Positions 278-30,804 of a stretch of 64,000 bases of DNA are shown here, piece by piece. The notes below the pieces were generated by a model. That model saw only the letters and a list, made by a program, of their open reading frames with translations, did no database searches and had not been told where the DNA came from. Position 1 is the first letter of the stretch, and the number at the start of each line of letters is the position of its first letter. Origin of the DNA: Haloferula rosea (GTDB lineage Bacteria; Verrucomicrobiota; Verrucomicrobiia; Verrucomicrobiales; Akkermansiaceae); contig NZ_JAENII010000004.1 of NCBI RefSeq assembly GCF_016595525.1, positions 310,001 to 374,000 on the forward strand, written 5' to 3'. The position numbers and the translations under genes were made by a program.

Positions 278-652
278 TCAGCGTTCGAGGATCTCGACCT
301 CGTAGCCGTCGGGGTCGGTGACGAAGGCCATCTTGCGCTCGCCGGAGCTGAATTTTTCGCGCCAGCCGTCGGGCCAGATCTCGATGCCGGATTTCTCGAC
401 CTTGTCGCAGTAGTCGATGATGTCCGGCACGCCGAGGGCGATGTGCATAAGGTCTTCCGGGCAGGTCGTCTTGTAGTCGGCGGACCAGGTCAGTTCGAGG
501 AAGCAGTCGTTGCCGGGGAGTTCGAGGAAGGCGAGTTGGTTCCCTTGTGGCGAGGTCTTCCTTTCCTTTTCCTGATATCCGAGCTTTTCGTAAAAGGCGA
601 TGGTGGCATCGAGGTCCTGGACGCGGATGCGGGTGTGGAGAAACTTGATCAT
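278..652 (-). CDS. gloA: Lactoylglutathione lyase-like VOC family protein (glyoxalase I)
   Basis: This 124-residue protein has the length and two-module layout of bacterial glyoxalase I, which isomerises the hemithioacetal of methylglyoxal and a thiol to a lactoyl thioester in the cytoplasm. The four expected metal ligands are in place: His6 (FLHTRIRV), Glu53 (FLEL), His70 (MHIALGV) and Glu120 (YEVEIL). The family motifs AFYEKLGY and DPDGYEVE are also present. A longer reading from 778 exists, but its first 42 residues are unlike the family and it overlaps the divergent promoter region of the next gene; the ATG at 650-652 gives the canonical MIKFLHTRIRV start. The substrate could be another thiol adduct, since VOC members vary. 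Confidence 0.85.
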   Translation of the reverse strand: MIKFLHTRIRVQDLDATIAFYEKLGYQEKERKTSPQGNQLAFLELPGNDCFLELTWSADYKTTCPEDLMHIALGVPDIIDYCDKVEKSGIEIWPDGWREKFSSGERKMAFVTDPDGYEVEILER

Positions 653-776
653 GTCGGGCGTAGTCTGGAGTGGGTTTCGGCGCCTGTCATGGGCGAATCG
701 CGCATGATTTGCGATTGCACGCGCATGCCTTTTCGAAGGGTCGTCAAACCGTGAATCGGGTGCTAGGGTTTCCATC

Positions 777-25072: not shown

Positions 25073-26503
25073 TCAGGCTGGTGGGAAGAGGCCACGGGTC
25101 GCCAGATGAGCGAGCCACGGGTCGAAATCCAAGTCCGGTGCCTGGTCCCGGGCGATCGCACGCAGTTCGTCGTGTCCGTGCGTTCCGTCGAGTGCCTTCA
25201 CGACCTTCTGGTGACTTTCGGGGAAGCGGCAGGTCTGGTGGAAGGCGTCGACGAGCGGATCACCCTGCTTGGCAAAGTGGAGATTCAGTGCACCCAGGCA
25301 CGGCCGCGCCGGAGCGTGGGTGGCGGCGTGGACTTCCTCACTGCGGAGTTCGACCCAACCGAGTCGCGCCGCCTGATAGAGCCAGTCTGCGATCGCCTTC
25401 GATGCCTGTTCAGGCTCCCAACGAGGGCCGAGCCGGCGGGCACAGTCTTCCATCAGATCCGGGACGGACCGCGATGCCGGTGACGCGGCGGCCAGCGCGG
25501 CATGGAAATGTCCGACGATCTCCCCATGGATCGCCTTTTCCGGCAGCGATGAGACCCGCAGGCGAGCGGCGAAATGGAGTACCACCGAGGTGGTCGTGCC
25601 GGTGTCGAGCTGCGTATCCGCATGGCAGAACAAGCTGCTGCGGTGCGTTCGCCCGGACAGAAGATCGAGCGTCTGCTGGAATAGGACGGGATCGGCTTGC
25701 AGCGTCTCGAGCGTCCTCAGTGCCTCTGGATTGAGGTTGGGAGGGAGATTCCCCGGCAGGGTCGATTCGCCGAGATAGCGGAGTTTCTTCTGACCGGCCA
25801 AGTGCAGCACCCCACTGAAATGGAAAGGGTCACAGCAGGGGGCGAGCTCATCGAAGGCCAGGATCTCGGGCCCCTTTCGGCGCATGTCGCGGAAAATCTC
25901 GGCCAGATCCTGAGCGTGGGCGCTGTCCGACATCGCCGCGGTTTCGGCGAGTTGCTTGAGCTGGGCGTCGAGCCCGTCGCAGGGGCCGATCTGGGGGAGT
26001 GCCTTCAGCATCATCGCCGCTTCCCGACGCATGGCCCAGCCGGGCAGTGTGTTGTAGCTCACGTAGGCGATGCCCTGGGGAGCCAGCGACTTGGCGACCA
26101 AGTCCATCAGCGCCGATTTCGCCTCATCCGGGATCCACGACAGCATGCCATGGGCGATCACATAGTCGTAGGCCGACGAGCCCGGCTGCCACTCGCGCAG
26201 GTCCGCATGCTCGAAGGTCACGTTGTTCAGCCCCACCGCCTCCGCCGCCTGTCGCGCCGTGCGGATCGCCGAGTCCGAGAAATCGATCCCGTGGAACTCG
26301 CTATCCGGGAATCGCTCGGCCAGCGCGAGCAGGTGGTGGCCCGACGCGCAGCCGATATCCAGCACCCGGCACTGCTCGGGCAGCGGTGGCGACACCAATC
26401 CCGTGCAGCGTGCCGAAGCGCAGAGCACCCCCGGGTGTGCCTCAGGATGACTGAGGGCAGGGTATCGTTTCTGGGAGTAGAGTTCGCGAACGGGGTCGGA
26501 CAT
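25073..26503 (-). CDS. Class I SAM methyltransferase with methyltransferase-regulatory domain
   Basis: This 476-residue protein has a methyltransferase domain (about 30-190) with motif I VLDIGCASGHH (47-57), HGIDFSDSA and HGMLSWIPDE. A domain of the PF10119 'methyltransferase regulatory' type follows (about 215-310, with RRKGPEILAFDELAPCCDPF). The C-terminal 120 residues are helical. Such proteins are usually stand-alone methyltransferases of unknown substrate. The ATG at 26501-26503 is the family start; the longer frame to 26731 runs into the tRNA gene. Confidence 0.85.
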   Translation of the reverse strand: MSDPVRELYSQKRYPALSHPEAHPGVLCASARCTGLVSPPLPEQCRVLDIGCASGHHLLALAERFPDSEFHGIDFSDSAIRTARQAAEAVGLNNVTFEHADLREWQPGSSAYDYVIAHGMLSWIPDEAKSALMDLVAKSLAPQGIAYVSYNTLPGWAMRREAAMMLKALPQIGPCDGLDAQLKQLAETAAMSDSAHAQDLAEIFRDMRRKGPEILAFDELAPCCDPFHFSGVLHLAGQKKLRYLGESTLPGNLPPNLNPEALRTLETLQADPVLFQQTLDLLSGRTHRSSLFCHADTQLDTGTTTSVVLHFAARLRVSSLPEKAIHGEIVGHFHAALAAASPASRSVPDLMEDCARRLGPRWEPEQASKAIADWLYQAARLGWVELRSEEVHAATHAPARPCLGALNLHFAKQGDPLVDAFHQTCRFPESHQKVVKALDGTHGHDELRAIARDQAPDLDFDPWLAHLATRGLFPPA

Positions 26504-26629
26504 GGCGGGGAATGTCGATGGATGTGGCGCGAATGGCCAGAATGGATCGCAGTGATGATGGGCCCGCCGTTCCCGGATCGGAGGGGCCGAAATGGACACC
26601 CGATCGAGGAAAACGGACCAACCCGGGCA

Positions 26630-26658
26630 TTGACAGGCGCGCGGACGCTGCGTAGTGA
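26630..26658 (+). promoter_or_regulatory. Possible sigma-70 promoter for tRNA-Cys
   Basis: A perfect TTGACA (26630-26635) is followed after 17 bp by TAGTGA (26653-26658), a weak -10. The tRNA 5' end lies about 28 bp downstream, a reasonable distance. Confidence 0.4.
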
Positions 26659-26686
26659 ATCTCCCCCCGCACGCGGAACGTGTGAC

Positions 26687-26761
26687 GGCGGAGTAGCCAA
26701 GTGGTAAGGCATCGGTTTGCAAAACCGACATTCGCGGGTTCGATTCCCGCCTCCGCCTCCA
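26687..26761 (+). tRNA. tRNA-Cys (GCA)
   Basis: A full cloverleaf can be folded. The acceptor stem GGCGGAG (26687-26693) pairs with CTCCGCC (26751-26757). The anticodon stem TCGGT/ACCGA encloses TTGCAAA with anticodon GCA at 26719-26721. The T arm is GCGGG-TTCGATT-CCCGC. Discriminator T is at 26758, and CCA is encoded at 26759-26761. Confidence 0.97.
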
Positions 26762-27056: not shown

Positions 27057-28076
27057 ATGAAAAGGTGCCCTCTCCATGTTTGTTTGTTGATTTCTCTAAC
27101 AATGCAACTTTCGGCGAGGACCTGGACCAATCAGAAGGGGCAGTCGGTGGAAGGGGAGTTCCTGCGCAGGGACGGGGATGCCCATGTCGTCCTCGAGATC
27201 CGGAACAAGGAGCACCGCATGGCGATTGCCGATCTCTCGGAGGAGGATCAGCAGTGGATCAAGGAACAGGTTGAGGAGCCCACGGAGGGCGAATCCAAGA
27301 AGGGGCCTGCGGGGCAGGTGACCCTGCTCGGGGTGCCGGTCAAACCTGGGCTGAATGTGGTGCCTTTCGATACGAGCAGCTACCCCTTCGACGACAAGAA
27401 CAAGGCGCACTCCGCCAAGTCGAACATCCACATCTTCCTGCCCGAGGGCTTCGATCCAACGAAGCAATACAACATCATGGTCACGCTCGGAACTTCATCG
27501 GGGAAGAACTCGAAGCAGTCAAATTCGATCCGACATTTTGGCGCCCCGGGAGCGGCGAAGGGCTGGGTGGTGATGACTTCGGACAGCGTCAAGGGTCGTC
27601 CGCCGAACTACGGCTTGATGTGGCGGATCACGATGATCGATGCGGCCCTCGATGTCCTGAACGAGGAGTGGCCTGCATCGGTCGAGTGGAACCTTGCCGC
27701 GGGTGGTTCATCCGGGGGTGCCAAGGCCGCGCAAGGGGTGCTGGCATGCATGGGAAGCAAGGAGTACGGCAGCCGTCGTATCGCGGGTCTTTTCCTGACG
27801 GGATGCAATGAGGAACTCTACTCGAAAATGGATCGTTCCACGTCTCCATCGCGCAAGGCCAGCGGCAACGTCGCGGTCTTTTTCAGTCAGGGGAAGAACG
27901 ACAAGGTGGCGCCACCTTCTGCGGCTGAACAAGTGCTCGATGGATTGAAGAAGGAAGGAATCCGCAAGCAGAACTACGTCGAATTCAATGGGGGGCACGG
28001 CGTCCACGCTCCCCACATCGCCGCGGCCTTCACGTGGCTCGGTGAGCATTGCGCCGAACTGGATGCCGAGCGCTGA
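27057..28076 (+). CDS. Exported SHD1-domain alpha/beta-hydrolase
   Basis: This 339-residue protein has a signal peptide (about residues 1-20). An SHD1-like module (about 21-72, RTWTNQKGQSVEGEFLRR ... IADLSEEDQQWI) follows, as is common in planctomycete/verrucomicrobial exported proteins. Residues about 120-339 form an alpha/beta hydrolase with nucleophile motif AAGGSSGGAK (Ser218), a likely acid in GKNDKVAPP and a catalytic histidine in GGHGVHAPH. The substrate may be an ester or peptide. The 295 bp between the tRNA and this gene carry no gene I can support. Confidence 0.82.
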   Translation: MKRCPLHVCLLISLTMQLSARTWTNQKGQSVEGEFLRRDGDAHVVLEIRNKEHRMAIADLSEEDQQWIKEQVEEPTEGESKKGPAGQVTLLGVPVKPGLNVVPFDTSSYPFDDKNKAHSAKSNIHIFLPEGFDPTKQYNIMVTLGTSSGKNSKQSNSIRHFGAPGAAKGWVVMTSDSVKGRPPNYGLMWRITMIDAALDVLNEEWPASVEWNLAAGGSSGGAKAAQGVLACMGSKEYGSRRIAGLFLTGCNEELYSKMDRSTSPSRKASGNVAVFFSQGKNDKVAPPSAAEQVLDGLKKEGIRKQNYVEFNGGHGVHAPHIAAAFTWLGEHCAELDAER

Positions 28077-28222: not shown

Positions 28223-30565
28223 TCAGCGCGAGTTGCGCAGCGCTTTGCGCCTGAGGGTTTCCTTCACTGCGGCGTGGCAGTTGATCAGTCCGTGACCGGT
28301 CTCATGGTCCACTCCCGGTGGTCCGACATCGGTCGCCGTGGTCGTGATGATCTCCTGCAAGTCCCAAGGGAGGAGATCGGGATCCGCCGAGAGCATCAGG
28401 GAGATGGTTCCGCAGAACATGGGACCCGCATAGGAGTTGCCGCGAAGCAGATTTTCAACGACGGAACCATCGGGAAGCAGGCACGGCACGTCGATGTTGA
28501 ACGCGCACACTTCGGGCTTCTGCACGATGCCATCCTGATAGTGTTCGGTATTCCATTCCACCGGGCCGATGCAGGAAAAGGGCGTCTTGCTCAGATCCTT
28601 CTGAACTCCGGCAGCGGCGAAGACCGCGTTCGGAATGTTCTGCGGGATGTTCATGAGGAAAGGGGACTCATCGCCCCGTTCCACATTTCCCGCACCGGAC
28701 ACAAAGAACACTCCGCAGAAGGCTCCATGCTCCATCACTTTCCGCCAGTGGGATTGGTATTCGCCGAGCTTTCGCCGGGAGAAACTCATGCTGTAGGTGT
28801 CGGCCCCCTGCTCGATGGCCCACTCCACGGATCTTTCGATCCCGCCGAGGTTGATCACGCCGGCCCAGCGCCCCAGCGGGGCAACGCCGACCTGTGGAAT
28901 GCCTGACTCCGAGCCGGCTCCGCAGACGATGTTGGCGCAACTTGTGCCGTGGAGAACCCTCCGGTCCTTCGGGTCGCCTGAGAACGACTGGGTGTGGAGC
29001 TGTGGGGATTGTCGATCAAAGTTGTAGCCGTGCACGTCATCGACGTAGCCGTTCAGGTCATCGTCGATGCCGTTTCCCGGGATCTCGTCCGGATTCCGGT
29101 AGATGCTGCGTGCCAGATGGTTGGAGGCAATGAAGTTCCTGTCATGGATCACGTTGAGGGTGCCCTCTCCGGCCACTCCGAAGTCCCTCCACACCTGGTC
29201 CGCCTTCAGCTTTTCGATGTACCAGGGAAGGTTTTCGTAGGATGGCTTGTCGGGGCCCGGCAGATCCGGCACGGGCGCCACTTCGGGTAGAGGTGGGCTT
29301 GGCGGAGTCCTTGCGGCGCGCAGGAAAATCTTGCGCACACCAGGGACCTTGGTCAGCGCGGGCAGGTCTTCTTTTGAAATCGTGCAACTGAAGCCGTTGA
29401 CGATCCAGTGGCGATCGAGATCGTCGATGGTCTTGTCCTTCAGCAACCGCTGGAGCACGGCATCCGCCTCGCGATGCGATCGCATGCTTTCGTTCTTCAG
29501 GACTTTGACAACCTGCGTGCGCATTTCGCGCCGACCTGCATCAGCAAACTCCTTCGACCTGCGCTCGTAGCCCATGCCATCTCCGAGAAACTGGGTTTCA
29601 AACCACACCGTCACGCGCAACGGTCCGCCCCGGCTCGGGTAGCCGGGGGGGAGCGGAGAGATCCACACTCCTTCGCCTGAAAGGGTCTCCATCGAGAGTT
29701 TTGGGGACCCCGGGCTGACGTCGAGCTTGCCGAGACGCGGACCCTTCATGGCCTGGGCCCTTGCTTTTGTGATTTGGGTGGGACCGAGCCGGAGCTTCAC
29801 ATGACCCTTCATCAGGTTGTCCTTCATGCCTTCGTCCACATGCAGGAGGCTCAGGTTGTGGCCGAGCTCGTGGGCTATCGTGGCGGAAAGGGCGCCCGCC
29901 TTGGGGAAGTTTGAAATGGTTAGAGTGGGCTGGGTCTTCGCCGGGATGACATGCGTGCGCGGCTTCGGGTAGCCCTTTCGGTTCGGAGCCTTGTCCGAGA
30001 ATACACCGACGATCGCGAAGTTCCCGGAGATCGTCGCCGTGCCCTGCAAGGTCTGGCCGACGTAAGGGAGGAGATAGAGATGATACATCTCCGGCTTGGT
30101 TCGGTTGAAGCGGCCGTCGTCGCCGATCGTTTCGTTGTTCGCCGGGTCCGCGAGCCGTGGGAACACCTCGCTCATGTAGTTCACCTGACTGCCACGCTCC
30201 CTCGCCACCACCTGCTTCGCCAGCGTGTCGAGAGGTTCCTGTGGCAATCGACCTCCCGCGGCCTTCTCCCTGATGATCCCGCCGCCGCCTGCCTCCGGAT
30301 CGGTCACCCATTCGATGCCGGCCGGCGCCCAGATGTCATTCACCTGCGCCATCATGACCTTCGCGTCGGCCACCGTCACCGGCATGTCCATCCGGGTTTT
30401 GTGGGTGGTGCCATCCGGCTTCGCGACCTCACGCACCATCTCGATGTCGGTCACGAGGTGCACCCTCAAGGGCAAGCGAAGGGTCTCTTCGTCCGCCATG
30501 GCAGGAAGTAGCAGGCAGGGGATGAGCGTCAGCACCATCGTACTGAAGAGGCGGATCGGATTCAT
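28223..30565 (-). CDS. Secreted metzincin-like plus subtilisin-like fusion protease
   Basis: This 780-residue protein has a signal peptide (MNPIRLFSTMVLTLIPCLLLPAMA). Residues about 30-255 form a zinc-protease domain with HELGHNLSLLH (His232, Glu233, His236, His242), the metzincin HExxHxxxxxH pattern but with Ser239 where Gly is usual; LMKGH may be the Met-turn. Residues about 349-416 look like an I9 propeptide, followed by an S8 domain with HGTSCANIVCGAG (His539), SGAGN (Asn627) and GNSYAGP (Ser711). The site of the catalytic aspartate reads VIHDRNF, so the canonical position is His474 with Asp475 next to it. Either the triad is shifted or the S8 unit is inactive. The ATG at 30563-30565 is chosen because it starts the signal peptide. 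Confidence 0.85.
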   Translation of the reverse strand: MNPIRLFSTMVLTLIPCLLLPAMADEETLRLPLRVHLVTDIEMVREVAKPDGTTHKTRMDMPVTVADAKVMMAQVNDIWAPAGIEWVTDPEAGGGGIIREKAAGGRLPQEPLDTLAKQVVARERGSQVNYMSEVFPRLADPANNETIGDDGRFNRTKPEMYHLYLLPYVGQTLQGTATISGNFAIVGVFSDKAPNRKGYPKPRTHVIPAKTQPTLTISNFPKAGALSATIAHELGHNLSLLHVDEGMKDNLMKGHVKLRLGPTQITKARAQAMKGPRLGKLDVSPGSPKLSMETLSGEGVWISPLPPGYPSRGGPLRVTVWFETQFLGDGMGYERRSKEFADAGRREMRTQVVKVLKNESMRSHREADAVLQRLLKDKTIDDLDRHWIVNGFSCTISKEDLPALTKVPGVRKIFLRAARTPPSPPLPEVAPVPDLPGPDKPSYENLPWYIEKLKADQVWRDFGVAGEGTLNVIHDRNFIASNHLARSIYRNPDEIPGNGIDDDLNGYVDDVHGYNFDRQSPQLHTQSFSGDPKDRRVLHGTSCANIVCGAGSESGIPQVGVAPLGRWAGVINLGGIERSVEWAIEQGADTYSMSFSRRKLGEYQSHWRKVMEHGAFCGVFFVSGAGNVERGDESPFLMNIPQNIPNAVFAAAGVQKDLSKTPFSCIGPVEWNTEHYQDGIVQKPEVCAFNIDVPCLLPDGSVVENLLRGNSYAGPMFCGTISLMLSADPDLLPWDLQEIITTTATDVGPPGVDHETGHGLINCHAAVKETLRRKALRNSR

Positions 30566-30804
30566 GATGCGATGGGAAGGGGAGGGGATGCCTTGGGCGG
30601 CTTCTCGAAATGGAACCGTGTGTCCCCGAGGCGGATCTCGGAGATTCCGGGACTTCTTCAACCAAGCGCGATCCTCCCTTTCCTGCGGCAGTGAGAACAG
30701 TGGAAATTTCCGGAGTGAGTCAGGGGAGGCGATCCGGGGCCGGTTGTGGCATGTGGCATTGCCGTTGTGAAGCGACTCTGCTTCAACCGTCTGAGCATCC
30801 CGCC

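Follow-up and report, generated by a model that had tools for sequence, protein, structure and literature searches.

The usual motifs of peptidase family S8 are DTG, HGTHVA and GTS, and subtilases normally cleave after their prodomain in the course of maturation. In a 64,000-nucleotide stretch of the genome of Haloferula rosea (hereafter called the window), we analysed an ORF whose predicted product combines a subtilase with a metzincin-like zinc protease. Its S8 half resembles deseasin MCP-01, Plasmodium SUB1 and pro-subtilisin E in the Asp-His-Ser order of its predicted catalytic residues, its oxyanion Asn, its I9-like prodomain and its fold. However, it shares 22-24% identity with its top structural matches, and the three usual motifs are replaced in its subfamily by HD-x-(mostly N or G)-F, HG-x-x-C and GNS. 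Like metzincins, including the M12B reprolysins and the M10 matrixins, the N-terminal half combines an HExxHxxxxxH zinc site with a Met residue downstream, but the profile matches mostly cover the zinc helix, and the Gly residue of the metzincin motif is a Ser in the window protein.

Both types of proteases occur among the KLIKK proteases of Tannerella forsythia, which include three secreted metalloproteases and as many secreted serine proteases, all with a signal peptide and an N-terminal profragment (PMC4404884). These enzymes are separate proteins with a common C-terminal domain (PMC4404884), whereas the window encodes two proteases in one chain. A PDB search with the sequence of the window protein gave the KLIKK protease mirolase as the best match, in the S8 half. 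Mirolysin has a cysteine switch (PMC8259862), unlike the zinc half of the window protein, which appears to have no such switch of its own since it harbours no Cys residue after the signal peptide and starts directly at the apparent catalytic domain. Metzincin-type proteases are also described in the phylum of the window's bacterium, namely the metzincin-like O-glycopeptidases OgpA and AMUC_1438 of Akkermansia, the latter with a secretion signal (PMC9513282). Among the matches listed in a search of the open-licence literature, we recognized no description of a metzincin-subtilase fusion.

Organization and distribution of the fused gene

The first-pass annotation of the window had proposed that one secreted protein fuses a metzincin-like zinc protease to a subtilisin-like domain. 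The ORF is present as described, on the minus strand, and HELGHNLSLLH, VIHD (residues 472-475), His539 and Ser711 are all found in its product (Table 1). An alternative in-frame TTG start at position 30661 would yield a protein of 812 residues, but the choice of the ATG agrees, by eye, with the signal peptide and with the start of the homologue described below. In the second half of the product, which begins at residue ~290, the Pfam Peptidase_S8 signature (PF00082) spans residues 529-759 (E=1.3e-16, 61.3 bits for a cut-off of 21.8), this match being the weakest of the four found for that signature in the window's genome, and none of the NCBIfam models matches the fused protein over its cut-off.

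Table 1. Features of the fused gene and of its product, with their positions in the window.
Feature	Residues	Positions	Strand	Basis
Whole fused ORF, ATG start	780 aa	28223..30565	(-)	stop at 28223, ATG at 30565
Signal peptide	~1-24	30494..30565	(-)	by eye
Metzincin-like zinc protease half	~25-285	29711..30493	(-)	close stand-alone homologues in 4 genomes; alignment
HELGHNLSLLH zinc site	232-242	29840..29872	(-)	HExGHxLxLxH in 18/18 family rows
Candidate Met-turn residue	Met252	29810..29812	(-)	Met in 18/18 rows, as LMKG or LMGG
Fusion junction, KGPRLGKLDVSPGSPKLSMETL region	~276-292	29690..29740	(-)	ends of stand-alone homologues, by eye
I9-like prodomain	~314-417	29315..29626	(-)	VIA-align to pro-subtilisins; end point by eye
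Subtilisin (S8) catalytic domain	~440-777	28235..29248	(-)	PF00082; model; structure matches
Predicted catalytic Asp	Asp475	29141..29143	(-)	D in 91/91 rows with a residue; profile pairings
Predicted catalytic His	His539	28949..28951	(-)	H in 90/90 readable rows
Oxyanion-hole Asn (FVSGAGN)	Asn627	28685..28687	(-)	N in 90/91 rows
Predicted catalytic Ser (GNSYAGP)	Ser711	28433..28435	(-)	S in 87/88 rows

To collect other proteins with both domains, we compared the whole fused protein with 260 genomes of the same family, with at most four candidate places scored per genome. Homologues at E=1e-30 or better were found in 15 genomes, 9 of which harbour the subtilase only, 2 the zinc protease only (G020 and G121, with completeness values of 84% and 88%), 2 both proteases as separate genes (G011 and G160) and 2 the fused gene. 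The latter are the window's genome and a single other genome, G012, whose fused protein of 772 residues is 67% identical to that of the window over nearly its full length and has no internal stop. G012 additionally encodes a separate subtilase, and the 13 other genomes of its genus yielded no match to the fused protein. The fused gene is thus real and unusual, and it is not an assembly error, because an independent genome harbours the same two-domain gene. That a chimeric contig generated it is next to impossible: the window's genome assembly does consist of 69 contigs, but G012 has the two domains in the same order and orientation and in an intact frame, with different flanking genes.

In G011 and G160, the zinc protease and subtilase genes are located on different contigs and are not adjacent to each other within the stretches read. 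By eye, stand-alone zinc proteases stop approximately where the junction of the fused protein starts, and in stand-alone subtilases a hydrophobic segment of their own lies at the N-terminus, ahead of a METL or MESL motif and the prodomain. Outside of the family, a tblastn search of 78 subtilase loci, with flanks of up to 4 kb and some short contigs, revealed no relative of the zinc half. No viral relatives of either half were found. Matches were identified in 48 plasmid records, every one of them at less than 60% identity and none covering 80% of the query.

The S8 half and its catalytic residues

We built a full-length model of the fused protein with 37 subtilase relatives, using an alignment devoid of relatives of the zinc half. 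The model is confident from residue ~290 on, with pLDDT values mostly above 90 between residues 290 and 780. Structural comparisons of the S8 half with VIA-align yielded Z scores of 35.3 with PfSUB1 (4lvn; 303 residues, rmsd 2.6) and 35.1 with MCP-01 (3vv3). The modelled S8 half thus has a subtilisin fold, as judged from its match to solved subtilases. The first-pass annotation had also recognized an I9 propeptide, and the structure comparisons support its presence: the unprocessed forms of pro-subtilisin E (3whi, Z=34.1) and pro-Tk-subtilisin (2zwo, Z=33.7) were aligned over residues 314..768 and 314..772, respectively. Because these alignments start at residue 314, an I9-like prodomain appears to be present even though Pfam barely detects one. 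At the sequence level, the Pfam I9 signature matches 4 of 38 subtilase members, with a best E value of 0.019. PF00082 matches all 38 aligned members at E=0.1 or better.

The 78 subtilase loci bear titles that mainly correspond to Verrucomicrobiota, Planctomycetota and Bacteroidota, with one Desulfococcaceae. For the S8 half, we generated an alignment of 92 rows, which comprises the window protein, 13 rows from family genomes and the 78 loci, 11 rows being duplicate contigs. Judging from this alignment, the S8 subfamily is wide and strongly conserved. In most members, a NPxEIPGNGxDDDxNG segment follows the catalytic Asp; seven planctomycete subtilases (L090, L093, L094, L096, L097, L098 and L128) lack this whole segment. 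Many subtilases (most of L059-L077 and others in L051-L128) harbour approximately 100 additional C-terminal residues, and their ORFs code for ~610-730 residues versus ~500-550 for the others.

According to the first-pass annotation, the catalytic Asp is displaced, as the window protein reads VIHDRN where VIDTG is expected, and the protein might represent either a bifunctional protease or a subtilisin scaffold that lost activity. The alignment does not bear out the displacement. Asp475 is invariant, whereas position 474 is a His in 82 of 91 rows and an Ala, Gln, Ser or Met in the remaining 9, and therefore His474 is not essential. The Asp-His-Ser order and the oxyanion Asn are conserved (Table 1), the two exceptions at these positions being one row with unreadable letters and one truncated reading frame. 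In the model, Asp475 directly follows the strand formed by residues 470-474, His539 is the first residue of a helix, and Ser711 is located at the N-terminal end of the 710-727 helix.

We also compared the spacing of conserved residues with that of canonical subtilases, for which we used six sequences from 11 loci. Spacings were derived from four of them; the other two rows, which stem from two copies of a single gene with a different layout and were left unaligned in this region by MAFFT, were set aside. The distance between Trp459 and Asp475 is 16 residues in all 91 measured rows of the subfamily versus 15 in the four canonical subtilases, and the distance from Gly468 to Asp475 has a constant value of 7 in the 91 rows measured. 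Asp475 and Asn491 are 16 residues apart in 66 of the 67 non-Bacteroidota rows that were measured (9 more were not measurable) and 17 residues apart in all 16 Bacteroidota rows, the latter value being equal to that of the four canonical subtilases. Two compensating one-residue indels would therefore bring His474 opposite the canonical Asp in a gapless alignment, which accounts for the register proposed initially.

In most alignments to canonical subtilases, Asp475 falls opposite the catalytic Asp of these enzymes. This was the case for the profile alignments with MCP-01 and PvSUB1, which are the two of five printed PDB alignments that reach this strand, for the global hhalign profile alignment and for 4 of the 6 canonical rows in the MAFFT alignment. 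Given six sequences, the HMM profile of the Bacteroidota members aligned Asp with Asp in all four of the printed alignments, and that of the whole family did so in two of three printed ones, the third (L025) having His474 at that place. A single-sequence phmmer search placed Arg476, and not Asp475, opposite the catalytic Asp of PvSUB1. His474 may represent either a substitution of the usual Ile or Val residue or an inserted bulge residue.

Altogether, the S8 half looks like it keeps an ordinary Asp475-His539-Ser711 triad together with Asn627. A shift of the catalytic Asp by one residue, generating a non-standard triad in which Asp475 acts from a bulge or His474 is the third member, appears quite unlikely. 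It would agree with the alignment without gaps between Trp459 and the NPxEIPGNG segment, with the L025 alignment and with the gap that MAFFT introduces opposite His474, as expected of an inserted residue, but it does not account for the replacements of His474, the constant Gly468-Asp475 distance, the canonical-like Asp475-Asn491 distance of the Bacteroidota members or the consistent pairing by the Bacteroidota profile. It is highly unlikely that the subtilisin part is inactive and serves the zinc protease as a scaffold or a binding module. The window protein does have a degenerate DTG motif (D-R-N), and the local Pfam match starts only at residue 529, but Asp475, His539, Asn627 and Ser711 are conserved throughout the subfamily, including in its unfused members, and the prodomain is still present. 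In addition, H-D-S-G is found in Bacteroidota members, L104 and L112 among them, and D-S-G is the textbook form of the subtilase Asp motif. The case illustrates that reading a motif locally can wrongly suggest that an active site is shifted.

Two candidate arrangements were rejected in the course of this analysis, a displaced or lost catalytic Asp on the basis of conservation and spacing, and a Ser-His-His triad using His474 because this residue is replaced in 9 of the 91 rows.

The zinc protease half and its relatives

Our alignment of the zinc protease family comprises 18 rows, six from close homologues, including the two fused proteins, and twelve from distant ones. The HExGHxLxLxH motif and the later Met residue are conserved throughout, such that the three zinc His ligands, the catalytic Glu and the Met of the Met-turn are predicted in all 18 rows. 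The Gly of the HEXXHXXGXXH motif, a defining position of metzincins, corresponds to Ser239 in the window protein and is a Gly in 7 of the 18 rows and a Ser or a Thr in the other 11. Owing to this replacement by Ser239, we call this half 'metzincin-like' rather than filing it as a member of the metzincins.

That part of the initial proposal agrees with the zinc site and with weak but significant profile matches of the wider family (Reprolysin_5, E=7.9e-6 for the best member; trimerelysin II, E=7e-6), although the zinc half of the window protein itself remains below the Pfam cut-offs (Reprolysin_3, E=0.08 with the full protein, 15.3 bits for a cut-off of 22.4). The comparison of the zinc-half profile with PDB entry 6z2d, named 'O-glycan protease', which we take to be OgpA, gave an E value of only 0.17, which does not establish kinship. 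Modelling the zinc half alone from its single sequence yielded a pLDDT of 33, and in the full-length model the pLDDT is below 50 over most of residues 1-261.

In our searches, the zinc protease family was found in 18 of 386 genomes of the order, in two of its families, and in 3 of 387 genomes of the phylum. Its members are also found in other combinations: the zinc module follows a GDSL-type hydrolase in L018:130-2172 and L020:250-2199 and an SHD1-type domain in L144:856-1989, with partners below the Pfam cut-offs, and it precedes a methyltransferase in L024:808-2307, the sole partner match over the cut-off. SHD1-type heads on such distant relatives are reminiscent of the start of the convergent neighbour of the fused gene at 27057-28076. 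By eye, that neighbour begins with an SHD1-like region, with no Pfam match, and continues with a hydrolase-like region that matches Peptidase_S9 below the cut-off.

Origin and proposed role of the fused protein

For each half of the window protein, a stand-alone homologue is a nearer relative than the fused counterpart in G012. The S8 half is 73% identical to the stand-alone subtilase of G090 versus 69% to G012, and the zinc half is 70% identical to the stand-alone protein of G020 versus 61% to G012. AU tests of the fused pair as one clade gave p values of 0.115 (24 rows) and 0.056 (10 rows) for the S8 half, 0.022 (18 rows) and 0.063 (6 rows) for the zinc half, and 0.061 (4 rows) for the concatenated halves. 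These five tests lean against the sisterhood of the two fused proteins, but they are not decisive, and either two fusions or one fusion followed by splitting may have occurred. We consider it quite possible, if somewhat doubtful, that both genomes inherited one ancient fusion and that the separate genes partly stem from later splitting or exchange. Sisterhood is not firmly rejected by four of the tests; conversely, the p value of 0.022, the greater proximity of each half to stand-alone homologues and the different linker lengths of the two fused proteins argue against a single event, and splits would require new signal peptides and relocation.

The proportions of nucleotides that differ between the fused genes at codon positions 1, 2 and 3 are 0.31, 0.23 and 0.57 for the zinc half and 0.25, 0.18 and 0.58 for the S8 half. 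In both halves, the value for third positions is thus approximately double that for first positions and two- to threefold that for second positions, a pattern that would be expected of purifying selection.

In the genomes of the family, the zinc half and close subtilases co-occur, with Fisher p values, kinship being ignored, of 5.4e-5 with all genomes and 0.0095 without the two fused ones. For the subtilase clade nearest to the window protein, which was picked after the tree had been seen, the corresponding values, also with kinship ignored, are 2.8e-6 and 0.0018. The stand-alone subtilase nearest to that of the window (73% identity) is encoded by L042:131-1297, directly downstream of what by eye is a transposase-like ORF.

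Because both active sites appear intact by sequence, the simplest view is that of a secreted protease pair in one chain, and the conservation of both the zinc-site and the serine-triad residues makes a bifunctional protease plausible. We favour the reading that the fused protein is a secreted precursor of two working proteases that arose by end-to-end joining of separate genes. Its N-terminal half would be a small metzincin-like zinc protease without a recognizable prodomain, and its C-terminal half a member of the widespread S8 subfamily in which an ordinary triad is preceded by an I9-like prodomain. The two proteases would be exported as one chain, with the subtilisin prodomain between them, and both would be active. 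Considering this central prodomain and the usual cleavage of subtilases, maturation should probably separate the two halves, and a cut between the prodomain and the S8 domain may free the S8 enzyme from a zinc protease to which the prodomain remains attached. The benefit might be co-export at a 1:1 ratio for the breakdown of extracellular proteins; if so, the precursor would represent a natural 1:1 protease pair. A bolder proposal is that the same pair of unlinked protease genes underwent fusion on two independent occasions, each time yielding a two-protease precursor that splits itself: autocleavage at the central prodomain of the subtilisin would release a zinc protease with the prodomain still attached. 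This proposal is put forward tentatively and seems unlikely. If true, the double fusion would mark the zinc protease and the subtilisin as functional partners, through co-export or mutual activation. The fusion leads to the prediction that two secreted enzymes, otherwise separate, are functionally linked, and it offers a simple test of the role of the prodomain when a second protease is attached.

As for the genetic environment, 11 of the 78 loci have sulfatase-like ORFs, identified by eye, in the vicinity of the subtilase gene; these ORFs represent the largest neighbour cluster, in a count without a control set. In G012, two such ORFs, also identified by eye, lie upstream of the fused gene (L041:4732-7516). 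We did not retain sulfatases as operon partners, given their identification by eye and the uncontrolled count. In the window, a tRNA-Cys gene at 26687-26761 overlaps the 5' part of a minus-strand ORF at 25073-26731, and this methyltransferase gene therefore probably starts further downstream.
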